Shown here one piece after another: positions 578 through 50,411 of a stretch of 64,000 nt of DNA (position 1 is its first letter; each line of letters begins with the position of its first letter). The notes under the pieces are model-generated. The model did no database searches and was not told where the DNA came from. It saw nothing but the letters and a program-made list of their open reading frames with translations. The DNA is taken from positions 82,126 to 146,125 of the forward strand of contig CADBJW010000004.1 in assembly GCA_902795135.1 (NCBI GenBank), given 5' to 3'. This DNA comes from an uncultured Eubacteriales bacterium (GTDB lineage Bacteria > Bacillota > Clostridia > Peptostreptococcales > Anaerovoracaceae). The position numbers were made by a program, and so were the translations under genes.

Positions 578-1606
578 ATGAAAGAGCGCAACTACTTATT
601 CGACAACTTAAAAGCCCTTTTGATTTTCTGCGTTGTCTTCTCGCACTTCCTGCGCGTTGGCGGACACTTTGGCGTTTGCTCGCCGTCCAGAATCATCTAC
701 ATCATCTGTTTTTCCTTTATGATGCAAGGGTTCTTTTTTGTGTCCGGGTTCTTCTCCAAGAATCTGGACAAATGCCGTGCAAAGGCTTTTGAAACCTTTA
801 TCATCCCTTACGTGGTGTTTATGATTCTCTGCTATTTCGAACGGTACGCCCTCTTTGGAATCGCGCATCTTTATCTGTATTTGCCGACTCACGCCATGTG
901 GTTCCTGCTCGTCATGTTCTATCTTCGATTCGGCATCAAAACCCTGTCGAAGATTCCGTATATCCTGCCTCTCAGCGCCCTGCTGTATTTTCTGGCGGGA
1001 GCGATTCCATTCTGCGGTGTGGAAATGGCCTTTGGGCGGGCTTGTTCCTTCCTGGTGTTCTTTATGCTTGGTTATTGCTGCAACTGGGATCACATCAAAC
1101 GTCTGCGGAATATACCAAAGAAAGCCACCATTTTGCCGATTGCTTTATTGCTCGCATTCTCCATCTGGTTCGGCTGCCAAAAGCAGTTTGACGTGGAACT
1201 CCTGCTGCTCAAAGACAGTGACGCACACCTGGGGATTGGATTTGTAGAAGGGCTGATCGCCAGAGCAGTCGTGGTTTTGGTTTCACTGGGCTGGCTTGGG
1301 GTATGCATTGTACTTTTGCCAGACCGGAAGCTTCCAACCAAAGGAGGCTTGATCACCCAGATCGGACAGAATACCATGACCGTCTTTTTGCTGCATGTTT
1401 TTGTCCGGCAGCTCATCAAGTGGGCCAACCGGATGGAACTGCCGATCCTGCAGCCGGGAGGCGCGATTCACGTGCTTTTGATGCTCGCAGTGGCCCTGGC
1501 CTGCCTCTATTTATTCTCGCGGCCGCCGGTGGTCAAGGCGTACGATAAAGCCATGGCATTCCTGTACAAACCTTTTGGAAAGCTATATTCAATTGTGGTA
1601 AAATAA
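578..1606 (+). CDS. Acyltransferase family 3 (OafA/WecH-like) membrane protein
   Basis: A 342-residue polytopic membrane protein that opens with YLFDNLKALLIFCVVFSHF, the signature first helix of acyltransferase family 3, and continues with about ten hydrophobic segments. Members transfer acetyl or other acyl groups onto surface glycans or small molecules at the membrane. I start it at 578 rather than at the upstream in-frame ATG at 557, because 557 lies in the promoter spacer before the -10. No Shine-Dalgarno is seen at useful distance (AAAGG lies only 3 nt away), which fits a leaderless message. The stop codon lies 4 nt before scpA. Substrate cannot be deduced. Confidence 0.85.
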   Translation: MKERNYLFDNLKALLIFCVVFSHFLRVGGHFGVCSPSRIIYIICFSFMMQGFFFVSGFFSKNLDKCRAKAFETFIIPYVVFMILCYFERYALFGIAHLYLYLPTHAMWFLLVMFYLRFGIKTLSKIPYILPLSALLYFLAGAIPFCGVEMAFGRACSFLVFFMLGYCCNWDHIKRLRNIPKKATILPIALLLAFSIWFGCQKQFDVELLLLKDSDAHLGIGFVEGLIARAVVVLVSLGWLGVCIVLLPDRKLPTKGGLITQIGQNTMTVFLLHVFVRQLIKWANRMELPILQPGGAIHVLLMLAVALACLYLFSRPPVVKAYDKAMAFLYKPFGKLYSIVVK

Positions 1607-1610
1607 TCCC

Positions 1611-2384
1611 ATGAGTTACAGAGTGAAATTAAACGTCTTCGAAGGGCCATTTGATCTTCTGGTGTATCTGATCGAGCATGCCAGAATGAGCATCTATGAT
1701 ATTCAGGTCTCGGAGATTACAACTCAATATATTGATTACGTGAAAGAGATGAAAGAGGCCGACGTGACTCTTTCGTCTGAATTTATGGTGCTCGCAGCAG
1801 AGCTTTTGGAAATCAAGTCCAAGATGCTGTTGCCAAGAACGGTCATGGACGAAGTCGGCAGCGAAGTTTATGAAGACCCGCGGACGGAACTGGTCGCCAA
1901 GCTGCAGGAATACAAACGATTCAAATCCATTTCGGCCATGCTGGAAGAACGGGCAGCAGACGCCGCGGCGGCACTGGAAAAACCCCAGGAAGATCTGGCG
2001 GAATTTACGGGCGAGCCGGATGAGTACTTGCTGCTGGATACGGAGCAATTCCGGGCTGCCTTCGAACTGTTTCTCCAACGGAAAAAGCGGATGGAGGAAC
2101 TGCGGGAACACCATATTCGTACGGAAAAAGAGCGCATCACAACGGAAGTGCGTATGGCGGGAATCCGGGAGTTCTTCAAGGCGGAAGGGCTGCGTGAGAC
2201 GGATTTTCGCAGGCTGGTCCCGAACATCGAAGACAAATACGATATTTCGGTCACCTTCTCATCGGTGCTCGAAATGATGAAAGAACGAACCCTTGACGCA
2301 GAGCAGAAAAAATTATTTGGAGACATTTTGGTCAAGGCGACGGATCAACTGTTTGAAGAGGGAGAATCAAATGGCAGGGAATAA
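1611..2384 (+). CDS. scpA: Segregation and condensation protein A
   Basis: This 257-residue kleisin subunit bridges the SMC heads in bacterial condensin and works with ScpB in chromosome compaction and segregation. The N-terminus (YRVKLNVFEGPFDLLVYLIE) and the following SIYDIQVSEITTQYIDYV are diagnostic, and length is normal for the family. The C-terminal winged helix (residues about 180-250) is intact. The stop overlaps scpB by 14 nt, so they form one translational unit. There is no Shine-Dalgarno: TAAAAT (1599-1604) sits 6 nt before the ATG, suggesting a leaderless start or coupling to the upstream gene. Confidence 0.97.
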   Translation: MSYRVKLNVFEGPFDLLVYLIEHARMSIYDIQVSEITTQYIDYVKEMKEADVTLSSEFMVLAAELLEIKSKMLLPRTVMDEVGSEVYEDPRTELVAKLQEYKRFKSISAMLEERAADAAAALEKPQEDLAEFTGEPDEYLLLDTEQFRAAFELFLQRKKRMEELREHHIRTEKERITTEVRMAGIREFFKAEGLRETDFRRLVPNIEDKYDISVTFSSVLEMMKERTLDAEQKKLFGDILVKATDQLFEEGESNGRE

Positions 2385-4262: not shown

Positions 4263-4541
4263 TCACTCGGTTTCCGACCGGCATAATCGAAGCTTTTGCG
4301 CGCGGGAAAGGCGCTTGATGGCGTACTCCCGGCTCATGGCTTCTTTTTTTGTATCGAAATACTCGATGTGAACGAGTTTGACGGGCGTGCGGGTGCGGGT
4401 GTACTTGCCGCCCTGGCCGCTGTTGTGGGAAGCCAGCCGCCGGCGGATGTCGTTGGTCCAGCCCGTGTACAGGGTTCCATCGGAACATTTCAAAATGTAG
4501 GTGCAGTTGCCCTTTTGTAAAGAATCGGTTTGGTATTTCAT
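4263..4541 (-). CDS. GIY-YIG nuclease superfamily protein (YhbQ/UPF0213-like)
   Basis: A compact 92-residue protein made of a single GIY-YIG domain: TYILKCSDGTLYTGWTND holds the two aligned tyrosine motifs, followed by the R-R-L helix and the E of REYAIKR. Such stand-alone proteins are structure-selective nucleases or of unknown role in DNA repair. I place the start at 4541 and not at the in-frame ATG at 4565, because an extended -10 (TGG plus TATAAT, 4548-4556) lies exactly 6 nt before 4541, which would make the mRNA leaderless. No Shine-Dalgarno is visible. Confidence 0.85.
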   Translation of the reverse strand: MKYQTDSLQKGNCTYILKCSDGTLYTGWTNDIRRRLASHNSGQGGKYTRTRTPVKLVHIEYFDTKKEAMSREYAIKRLSRAQKLRLCRSETE

Positions 4542-4547
4542 GCTTGG

Positions 4548-4556
4548 ATTATACCA
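4548..4556 (-). promoter_or_regulatory. Extended -10 element 6 nt from the GIY-YIG start codon
   Basis: On the minus strand the sequence reads TGGTATAAT and then six bases before ATG. No good -35 is seen, as expected when an extended -10 compensates. Confidence 0.6.
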
Positions 4557-39694: not shown

Positions 39695-39700
39695 TATAAT
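39695..39700 (+). promoter_or_regulatory. -10 hexamer 6 nt from the lysozyme-like start codon
   Basis: A perfect TATAAT directly after the leuB stop, then GGGTCC and the ATG at 39707. No convincing -35 at 16-18 nt. Confidence 0.5.
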
Positions 39701-39706
39701 GGGTCC

Positions 39707-40357
39707 ATGGCTAATAAACGGGGGACAACGAATCAGCGTAAAACGAGCAGCAGACGTCGTCGTATGAAGCGCACAAAACGCGTGATAACGAGGCGTACTG
39801 TTCGTTTTTTTGCGTTGGTTGGAGTGGGCCTTGCGATTCTGGTGATCATCTTTGGAATCACCCAGAGCACGAACAAAATCCATATGCCCCTCAGCCCGAG
39901 CGTCAAAAGTTACGATGAGACGATCCTGAAGTTATCCAAGAAATACGGCATTGAATCCTACGCGCCGCTGGTCAGCGCGGTGATGATGCAGGAGTCCCAC
40001 GGCAGGGGCAATGACCCCATGCAGTCTTCCGAAGGAAACTACAATACGAGATTCCCTCAAGAGCCCCATGGCATTACGGACCCGCGGTATTCCATCGAAT
40101 GCGGCGTCCACCAGCTTGCAGATGATTTGAAAATGGCAGGCTGCAAAGGCCCGACAGATATCAAGGGCATCAGCCTGGCCATTCAGGGATATAATTTCGG
40201 CGATGGATATATTAAATGGGCGCTCAAAAAATATGGCGAGTATTCCGAGAAAAACGCCAAAGAATTCTCGGAAATGATGGCCAAGAAACTAGGCATGTCC
40301 GGATATGGGGACATTCATTACGTCAAACACGTGCTGCGATATTATCCCTACTCGTAA
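39707..40357 (+). CDS. Membrane-anchored lysozyme-like protein (CwlT-type muramidase domain)
   Basis: A 216-residue protein with a strongly basic N-terminus (RRRR and many K/R), one membrane helix (about 32-51) and an outer lysozyme-like domain. The probable catalytic glutamate is E96 in AVMMQESHGRGNDPMQSSE, followed by GVHQLADDLK and AIQGYNFGDGYI, as in the muramidase part of CwlT and relatives that open the cell wall. I chose ATG 39707, 6 nt after TATAAT, over the in-frame ATG at 39689, which lies ahead of the -10. No Shine-Dalgarno is seen. Confidence 0.85.
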   Translation: MANKRGTTNQRKTSSRRRRMKRTKRVITRRTVRFFALVGVGLAILVIIFGITQSTNKIHMPLSPSVKSYDETILKLSKKYGIESYAPLVSAVMMQESHGRGNDPMQSSEGNYNTRFPQEPHGITDPRYSIECGVHQLADDLKMAGCKGPTDIKGISLAIQGYNFGDGYIKWALKKYGEYSEKNAKEFSEMMAKKLGMSGYGDIHYVKHVLRYYPYS

Positions 40358-49212: not shown

Positions 49213-49241
49213 TTGAAATCCACATAGAATAATGGGATAAT
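49213..49241 (+). promoter_or_regulatory. Promoter fused to the start of the small protein gene
   Basis: TTGAAA (49213-49218), 17-nt spacer ending in TGG, then GATAAT (49236-49241) and exactly six bases before the ATG at 49248. The expected start point falls on the start codon. Confidence 0.65.
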
Positions 49242-49247
49242 ATGGCC

Positions 49248-49526
49248 ATGAATATGAACAAAGAAAAAGACACAACGGTCTGGAAACCAAAGGGCAACCA
49301 GAAAATAACCCGTCCCAGCGGTCCGGCCCCGAAAAAGCGCAAACCACGGAAGTCTGATCACCGCATGAATCGTGAGGGCAGATCCGAGAGTTTTGATGCG
49401 CCGAAAAGCGGATTCGGGAAATTGGGATTGTTCATCGGAGCAGGCGCGGTGATTGCTGCCTTGGTAAGAGGCTTTAGAAACAGCGATTACAGCGACGTTT
49501 ACGATGATACCAAAGACAAGGATTGA
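49248..49526 (+). CDS. Small basic single-span membrane protein, unrecognised
   Basis: A 92-residue protein: the first 55 residues are rich in K, R and P, then a hydrophobic helix (FGKLGLFIGAGAVIAALV) and an acidic tail (DYSDVYDDTKDKD). I do not recognise a family. Three in-frame ATGs (49242, 49248, 49254) lack a Shine-Dalgarno; 49248 is chosen because it is 6 nt from the -10, as in three other genes of the window. The DUF1002 gene follows 21 nt later. Confidence 0.7.
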   Translation: MNMNKEKDTTVWKPKGNQKITRPSGPAPKKRKPRKSDHRMNREGRSESFDAPKSGFGKLGLFIGAGAVIAALVRGFRNSDYSDVYDDTKDKD

Positions 49527-49547: not shown

Positions 49548-50411
49548 ATGAAACATATCAATCAAAGAAGGGGAGCAGCGATCACAGCTGTTGTTTTTGC
49601 TGTGTCTATGCTCCTGTCAACAGTTACAGCTTTTGCATCAGGGGATCAGGGATATCTGGCGCTCGGAGCGGACCTGTCCGATTCGGAGAAAGCCACGGTG
49701 CTGGATCTCATGGACGTCAGCAATCCGGACGACTACAACGTGATCACGGTCACAAATTCCGAAGAACACAAATACCTGGACAGCTACATCAGTTCCTCGG
49801 AAATTGGAACCAAAGCGCTTTCGTCGGTTCTGATCAAAGAAAACGGCGGCAATGACATTCACGTGGAAACGCAGAATATCAATTACTGCACGACGGGAAT
49901 GTACCGGAATGCATTGGCCACCGCCGGAGTCAGCGGCGCGGATGTTACCGTGGCGGGGCCTTTTGAAATCTCCGGAACGGCGGCTCTGGTCGGCACGATC
50001 AAAGCCTACGAGCAGATGTCAGGGGAAACCGTCAGCGACGATGTCATTGAGAGCAGCGTTGACGAGCTGACGACGACCGGTCAGGTTGGCGAGGACATCG
50101 GAGATACGGAAAAGGCCGAGGCCATTATCGCTTCGGTAAAGGAAGATATGGCAGAAAATCCGGACATGTCCGATTCGGAAATCGAAGAATCGATTCAGGA
50201 AGCGGCCCAGCAGGCAGACGTCGACATCTCAGATGAAAACGTGGAAGAGATTTCGGAGATGCTCCAGAACCTACAGGATTCGGATATTGACTGGGATAAC
50301 GTCAGAGAACAGTCCAAATCCATCATGGAAAACTTCAAAGGCATTTTTGATTCGGATGAAGCAAAGGGCCTGTTTGCCCGGTTCATCGCCTGGCTCAAGA
50401 GTCTTTTGTAA
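49548..50411 (+). CDS. DUF1002 secreted protein (YpuA-like)
   Basis: A 287-residue exported protein: signal peptide with cleavage near AFA-S (residue 31), then the DUF1002 core, seen as LALGADLSDSEKATVLDLMD, YLDSYISSSEIGTKALSSV and TTGMYRNALATAGVSGADV. The acidic C-terminal part is helical. B. subtilis YpuA is of this family and is induced by envelope stress; molecular function is unknown. GAAAGGGG precedes the ATG. Confidence 0.9.
   Translation: MKHINQRRGAAITAVVFAVSMLLSTVTAFASGDQGYLALGADLSDSEKATVLDLMDVSNPDDYNVITVTNSEEHKYLDSYISSSEIGTKALSSVLIKENGGNDIHVETQNINYCTTGMYRNALATAGVSGADVTVAGPFEISGTAALVGTIKAYEQMSGETVSDDVIESSVDELTTTGQVGEDIGDTEKAEAIIASVKEDMAENPDMSDSEIEESIQEAAQQADVDISDENVEEISEMLQNLQDSDIDWDNVREQSKSIMENFKGIFDSDEAKGLFARFIAWLKSLL

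Follow-up and report, generated by a model that had tools for sequence, protein, structure and literature searches.

Putative leaderless genes with a -10 element six nucleotides before the ATG in a genus of Clostridia

Four promoter-ATG sites and the genes behind them

The window, the whole stretch of 64,000 nucleotides that was analysed, is part of an assembly (G000) of 2,076,014 bases in 39 contigs. Four of its genes, coding for ScpA, a GIY-YIG domain protein, a lysozyme-like protein and a small protein, had been predicted to share a -10 hexamer exactly 6 nt before the ATG. All four sites were present as described, and the promoter-ATG stretches read letter for letter as the original prediction had stated. 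The features are given below in window coordinates.

1596..1604, plus strand: extended -10 TGG-TAAAAT of scpA; the same element and spacing occur in a relative (L031)
1599-1613, plus strand: -10-N6-ATG stretch of scpA, TAAAATAATCCCATG
1611..2384, plus strand: scpA (PF02616), with its ATG 6 nt downstream of the -10 and relatives aligning from residue 1
4263..4541, minus strand: gene for a GIY-YIG domain protein (PF01541), ATG at 4541-4539
4553-4539, minus strand: -10-N6-ATG stretch of the GIY-YIG gene, TATAATCCAAGCATG
4548..4556, minus strand: extended -10 TGG-TATAAT of the GIY-YIG gene, from sequence and relatives
39695..39700, plus strand: -10 TATAAT of the lysozyme-like gene, starting 6 nt past the stop codon of leuB
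39695-39709, plus strand: -10-N6-ATG stretch of the lysozyme-like gene, TATAATGGGTCCATG
39707..40357, plus strand: gene for a lysozyme-like protein (PF13702), start ATG at 39707
49213..49218, plus strand: -35 TTGAAA of the small gene, separated from the -10 by 17 nt and conserved in G031 and G032
49233..49241, plus strand: extended -10 TGG-GATAAT of the small gene, read from the sequence
49236-49250, plus strand: -10-N6-ATG stretch of the small gene, GATAATATGGCCATG
49248..49526, plus strand: gene for a small 92-aa protein matching no known family, upstream of a DUF1002 gene (49548-50411)

TGG precedes the hexamer at three of the four sites, as predicted, the lysozyme-like gene having CGT there. 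The genes had been said to lack a Shine-Dalgarno (SD) sequence, and none of the four spacers (AATCCC, CCAAGC, GGGTCC and ATGGCC, in site order) holds one. Pfam searches bore out the assignments of ScpA and of the GIY-YIG and lysozyme-like proteins and detected no match for the small protein. Among the four window genes, a conserved -35 was shown for the small gene only. Elsewhere in the window, an acyltransferase-domain gene (578-1606) has a TATAAT 9 nt upstream of its called ATG.

A reading in which these ATGs are not the real starts, with a downstream start and its own SD being used and the -10 merely preceding it, merits almost no credence. A gene caller working from coding score alone did put the start of the lysozyme-like gene at a TTG farther into the frame (39815), and the small gene has further in-frame ATGs at 49242 and 49254, three in all. 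ScpA relatives, however, align from residue 1 at the window ATG, and hence the ATG at 1611 is very likely the true scpA start, while a spacing of 6 is kept in relatives of the lysozyme-like and small genes. For the small gene, the ATG at 49248 was preferred because it lies 6 nt behind the -10 and is kept in relatives.

Spacing between -10 elements and start codons

In the window, TATAAT, TAAAAT or GATAAT was followed at spacing 6 by an ATG with an open frame of 80 or more codons four times, compared with zero to two times at every other spacing between 0 and 20; in 60 windows simulated under a first-order Markov null, the mean at spacing 6 was 0.1 and the maximum was 1. The plain pattern TAWAAT-N6-ATG, which does not take in the GATAAT site of the small gene, was found 4 times against 1.13 expected, a count that 4 of 100 shuffles also reached. 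One of these matches (33842) is antisense inside a called gene. Taken alone, this pattern count is weak, and it favours the explanation that AT-rich hexamers and ATGs coincide by chance at every spacing, the four sites having simply been picked out. The case draws its strength from counts across the genus, from gene starts and from orthologues. Chance is very unlikely as a general account, given an excess that is confined to exactly 6 nt over 41 pooled genomes, that stands at coding starts, that comes with a pyrimidine at -1 and that is often conserved, although individual unconserved sites may be due to it.

Whole-genome pattern counts, which are independent of the gene caller and of contig sampling, were obtained for 41 genomes of the genus. 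TGnTATAAT-N6-ATG occurred 357 times, compared with 142, 144 and 137 times at N5, N7 and N9, respectively. The count at N6 was above all three control spacings in 26 of the genomes and not above all of them in the other 15, with 7 of the 41 falling below the mean of their controls, and the per-genome range was wide (30 in G061 and 27 in G017). The window's own genome had 14 matches versus 7, 2 and 5 at N5, N7 and N9. Base composition was rejected as the cause, as the control spacings 5, 7 and 9 stay low in the genus. The original prediction had named the lack of a genome-wide excess at 6 nt as evidence against itself; a sharp excess at exactly 6 was detected in the genus, in G000 and at gene starts. 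Raw spacing counts made blind to genes were too noisy to decide (20, 20 and 25 exact TATAAT at spacings 4 to 6 but 25 at 10 and 23 at 19). Some N9 matches are ATGATG starts that are also counted at N6.

Across the class, the excess was weak. N6 exceeded N9 in 75 of 117 sampled genomes besides G000 and was lower in 37; with G000 included (118 genomes), the totals were 848 for N6 and 656 for N9, from which a weak version of the signal is wider than the genus. AT-rich order-level stretches of G037 and G049 (301 starts) gave no peak at spacing 6, and stretches of G030, G036 and G008 gave 3 cases at spacing 6 (none with exact TATAAT) versus 1 and 0 at the adjoining spacings and 4 at spacing 9. In a clostridial family with small genomes of 0.8 to 1.1 Mb (f15), the counts were 9, 10, 11 and 8 at N6 versus 2, 2, 0 and 3 at N9 in G068, G102, G150 and G171, respectively, and this family may carry a clear leaderless signal too.

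A similar peak was present when 932 gene starts were placed by coding score alone. With up to one mismatch in the -10, 14 of these starts had a spacing of 6 versus 1 and 4 at spacings 5 and 7; with exact TATAAT, the counts were 8 versus 1 and 1. Counts of 11 to 15 recur at several spacings from 14 up, the expected place of ordinary leadered promoters, and hence only the contrast with neighbouring spacings is informative at gene starts. By this measure, about 1% of the genes in this species would be leaderless, a figure that corresponds to 12 to 14 of the 932 starts before subtraction of a background of 1 to 4 and that comes from a somewhat enriched sample. The statement that most other genes have strong ribosome sites held in part, an SD-like 4-mer being found at -22 to -3 in 67% of the 932 predicted starts compared with 255 of 932 shuffled upstream sequences.

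Coding ATGs behind a good -10 were then counted in 2.49 Mb of sampled DNA. There were 35 at spacing 6 versus a mean of 7.2 at other spacings, the second-highest bin being spacing 9 with 13. The own sample contributed 15 cases at spacing 6, 1 at 5 and 5 at 7, and the relatives' sample, which includes scpA-centred loci, contributed 20, 0 and 1. The figure of 15 for the own sample is about 1.4 times too high, because contigs were sampled for carrying pattern hits and the 55% of the genome covered accounts for 25 of the 33 hits. As some of the 35 cases are orthologues of others in the set, they are not independent, and a Poisson P value for the excess is too small. The start codon at spacing 6 was mostly ATG, with 15 ATG, 1 GTG and 3 TTG in the own sample and 20, 1 and 1 in the relatives. 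An SD-like spacer (GGAGGG) was present in one of the 33 TATAAT-N6-ATG matches of G000 (C29, 19330-19344), where the -10 and the SD-like stretch fill the same 12 bases.

The bases around these ATGs were also distinctive. The base at -1 was a pyrimidine in 34 of the 35 cases at spacing 6 versus 60 of 127 at spacings 10 to 25 (Fisher P 1e-8), and the remaining five spacer positions of the 35 cases had no comparable bias. Initiators are usually a purine preceded by a pyrimidine; the -1 pyrimidine and the A of the ATG would together form the pattern expected for an initiator at that A. TGn preceded exact TATAAT in 19 of 28 cases at spacing 6 versus 24 of 109 at spacings 10 to 25. A -35 consensus did not mark the class, the best TTGACA matches differing little between spacing 6 and spacings 10 to 25. 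These promoters look like ordinary extended -10 promoters.

The -1 base also bears on a variant of this account, in which there is a very short leader, with transcription starting 1 to 3 nt from the A, or a second promoter, with most translation coming from a longer transcript that begins upstream. Bacterial start site choice varies by 1 to 2 nt, and leuB transcripts might also serve the lysozyme-like gene, which follows leuB at a distance of 18 nt. A short leader fits poorly with a peak that is sharp at 6 with few cases at 5 and 7, and the -1 pyrimidine and the four window spacers, none with an SD, point to initiation at the A itself. We consider this variant improbable, though it deserves more weight than chance does. 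In G013 (L072, contig C46), the leuB stop codon TAA sits within the TATAAT of the lysozyme-like gene; LeuB ends in EAVI*, and the lysozyme-like ATG is 7 nt past that stop.

Conservation of the spacing and identity of the genes

Starts were compared with those of relatives, as the original prediction had proposed. Loci were available for 30 of the 33 TATAAT-N6-ATG matches of G000. There were 26 own sites with at least 40 codons, and L110, L120, L136 and L024 were dropped before the orthologue search on account of negative coding scores. An orthologue was counted if the match reached the first 15 residues with at least 45% identity (39% for L085, lysozyme-like) and the locus had not been selected by the pattern. 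Contigs G031:C14 and G032:C68 were counted as one, the compared stretches being 99.9 to 100% identical; these were 3,627 and 1,500 bases of L243 (G031:C14) against L073 and L088 (G032:C68). Possibly, mis-binning placed one contig in both genomes; this would also account for the two DUF1002 matches of G031.

The 6-nt spacing was kept with other spacer letters in 17 of 23 orthologues without scpA; with scpA included, 18 of 42 had the 6-nt spacing. All six orthologues of a Mem_trans transporter (the sixth being L096) had 6 nt. Three of the four GIY-YIG orthologues kept it, with spacers CGACTC, GGAACC and AAACGT in place of CCAAGC in the window, and L039 lacked it. For the lysozyme-like gene, three of four orthologues had 6 nt and the fourth (L075, matching from residue 12) had 7 nt; L083, a longer protein in a 539-codon open frame lacking such a -10, was left out as not comparable. 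Two of the three small-protein orthologues had 6 nt with TTGAAA-N17-GATAAT intact and TGG before the hexamer, and the third (L089) had a GGAGG leader in place of the geometry. Single orthologues of the DinB polymerase, Asp23 and rRNA methylase genes each kept 6 nt (rRNA methylase with TATGAT), and those of HutD, the phosphoesterase and the second Y-family polymerase did not. Two more positive orthologues (L264 and L273) were pattern selected and were left uncounted. In the reverse direction, 9 of 20 sites found in relatives had an own orthologue of at least 45% identity in the sampled DNA, and 6 of these 9 showed 6 nt; L158, L164 and L229 lack the geometry in the own orthologue.

The scpA gene behaved differently, its geometry being shared by just 1 of the 19 nearer relatives (L031 to L049) and, by eye, by none of 19 farther loci. 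The one positive locus, L031, seems to correspond to contig C38 of G013, as the match has the same contig coordinates. Several scpA relatives (L040, L042, L046, L048 and L049) carry an element resembling TGGTATAAT or TGGTATACT at a greater distance upstream, followed by an SD leader, which makes a change of leader length behind the promoter a plausible route for scpA. ScpA relatives are mostly from uncultured Clostridia and Bacillota assemblies, with Hornefia, which is placed in Anaerovoracaceae, Aminicella and Emergencia at 54% identity.

Pfam analysis of own spacing-6 genes outside the window, a list that takes in pattern-selected loci, identified SfsA, a polysaccharide deacetylase, an rRNA methylase, an AraC-type regulator, a phosphoesterase, two YitT proteins, MFS and Mem_trans transporters, Asp23, an EF-G-like protein with a C-terminal NYN_YacP domain, two Y-family polymerases, HutD, a DNA methylase, an RNase H-like nuclease, a MaoC-like protein and a CN_hydrolase. 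The CN_hydrolase site (L140) may be due to chance, the coding score over its first 40 codons being negative. The EF-G-like GTPase with its NYN_YacP domain is at L209:4213-6891 (G000:C20). Both Y-family polymerase genes found in G000 (L202:4017-5342 and L026:280-1503) have the 6-nt geometry; that of the DinB polymerase is also present in G013, and the other Y-family polymerase lacks it in G031. No common operon or pathway was evident among the spacing-6 genes found.

The proposal of a dedicated leaderless class stands in one part: the class appears real by sequence, but its promoters look ordinary and no evident shared operon or pathway marks it as dedicated. A bolder version is that the leaderless genes of the genus make up a functional group with many proteins of DNA repair and of the envelope or transport (both Y-family polymerases, the GIY-YIG protein, the RNase H-like nuclease, the DNA methylase, transporters, YitT, Asp23 and the lysozyme-like protein). 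Their AUG-first messages would be translated preferentially when the balance of initiation factors or ribosomes changes under stress, and genes would enter or leave the group when a short SD leader is acquired or lost while the promoter stays in place, scpA being a possible example. We regard this version as speculative and unlikely.

Leaderless initiation and known systems

The features seen in the sequence, namely the 6-nt geometry and its excess, the preference for ATG, the -1 pyrimidine, the extended -10 and a spacing kept in part of the orthologues, are best explained by leaderless genes in which an extended -10 promoter lies 6 nt before the ATG and the RNA starts on the A of the ATG. We hold this reading with good confidence; as far as sequence can tell, the 6-nt excess and the -1 pyrimidine support it. 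The housekeeping RNA polymerase would recognise the extended -10, either TGn-TATAAT or a close variant of it, in some cases together with a -35. With the last -10 base 6 nt before the ATG, RNA synthesis would begin on the A, a purine after a pyrimidine, the mRNA would open with 5'-AUG and carry no SD leader, and the ribosome would bind the 5'-terminal AUG directly for translation. The start on the A, the use of the housekeeping sigma factor and the AUG-first ribosome route are inferred steps.

Leaderless genes of this kind are already known from Lactobacillales, Mycoplasma and Actinobacteria (PMC3160421, PMC4448216). The 6-nt spacing agrees with bacterial leaderless genes of the sigma-70 type, whose -10 ends some 6 to 7 nt ahead of the start codon. 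In their survey, Zheng et al. (2011) described leaderless genes with TA-like signals across bacteria and detected them in 56 of 209 Firmicutes genomes at an average of 4.2%, mostly in Lactobacillales and Mycoplasma (PMC3160421); its available text contains no word beginning with "clostridi". The survey and the present data agree in a TANNNT about 12 bp before the start, in a TG extension (in several low-GC genomes there) and in the dominance of SD-led genes in Firmicutes (PMC3160421). They differ in that a genus of Clostridia is concerned here, with an own sample of 48% GC and about 1% of genes.

All leaderless mRNAs of Streptococcus agalactiae have AUG as their start codon and 90% begin at its A; in this species, initiation occurs on average six nucleotides downstream of the TATA box (a count that may differ from the spacer used here) and 64% of promoters carry TGn (PMC4448216). 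In S. pyogenes, 54 of 67 leaderless cases are leaderless in S. agalactiae too (PMC4448216, PMC6431027). The streptococci share with the present genus the AUG and many extended -10 promoters; the start on the A was measured there and is inferred here. The streptococcal cases, identified by dRNA-seq, make up 8 to 9% of mRNAs, whereas the genes described here are deduced from sequence and are rarer (PMC4448216, PMC6431027). Translation from a 5'-terminal AUG by a 70S route is known in other bacteria (PMC6431027).

Among Clostridia, a transcription start site (TSS) map of C. difficile lists 15 leaderless candidate genes (PMC7438776), three related Clostridia have about 2 to 3% leaderless candidates (PMC9045289) and leaderless cases are 4% of InterS TSS in C. 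phytofermentans, generally with a ribosome binding site and an upstream TSS (PMC5171806). These maps concern the same class of organisms and a similarly low leaderless share; the available parts of the papers make no mention of a spacing conserved across species, whereas here it is often kept. A limited literature search found nothing on leaderless genes in Anaerovoracaceae, on leaderless transcription starts of GIY-YIG genes or on leaderless mRNAs of Firmicutes in connection with GeneMarkS-2, from which we do not claim absence from print. Leaderless initiation at exactly 6 nt is indicated as a maintained feature of a Clostridia genus, in a setting where the nearer ScpA loci (L031 to L049) are all from metagenome assemblies and TSS maps of other Clostridia report few leaderless cases. 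The spacing profile, the -1 pyrimidine and the orthologue spacing together provide a transcriptome-free test that can be applied to a genome alone. Start prediction that ignores the 6-nt signal can misplace such genes, as the coding-only caller appears to have done for two of the four window genes.
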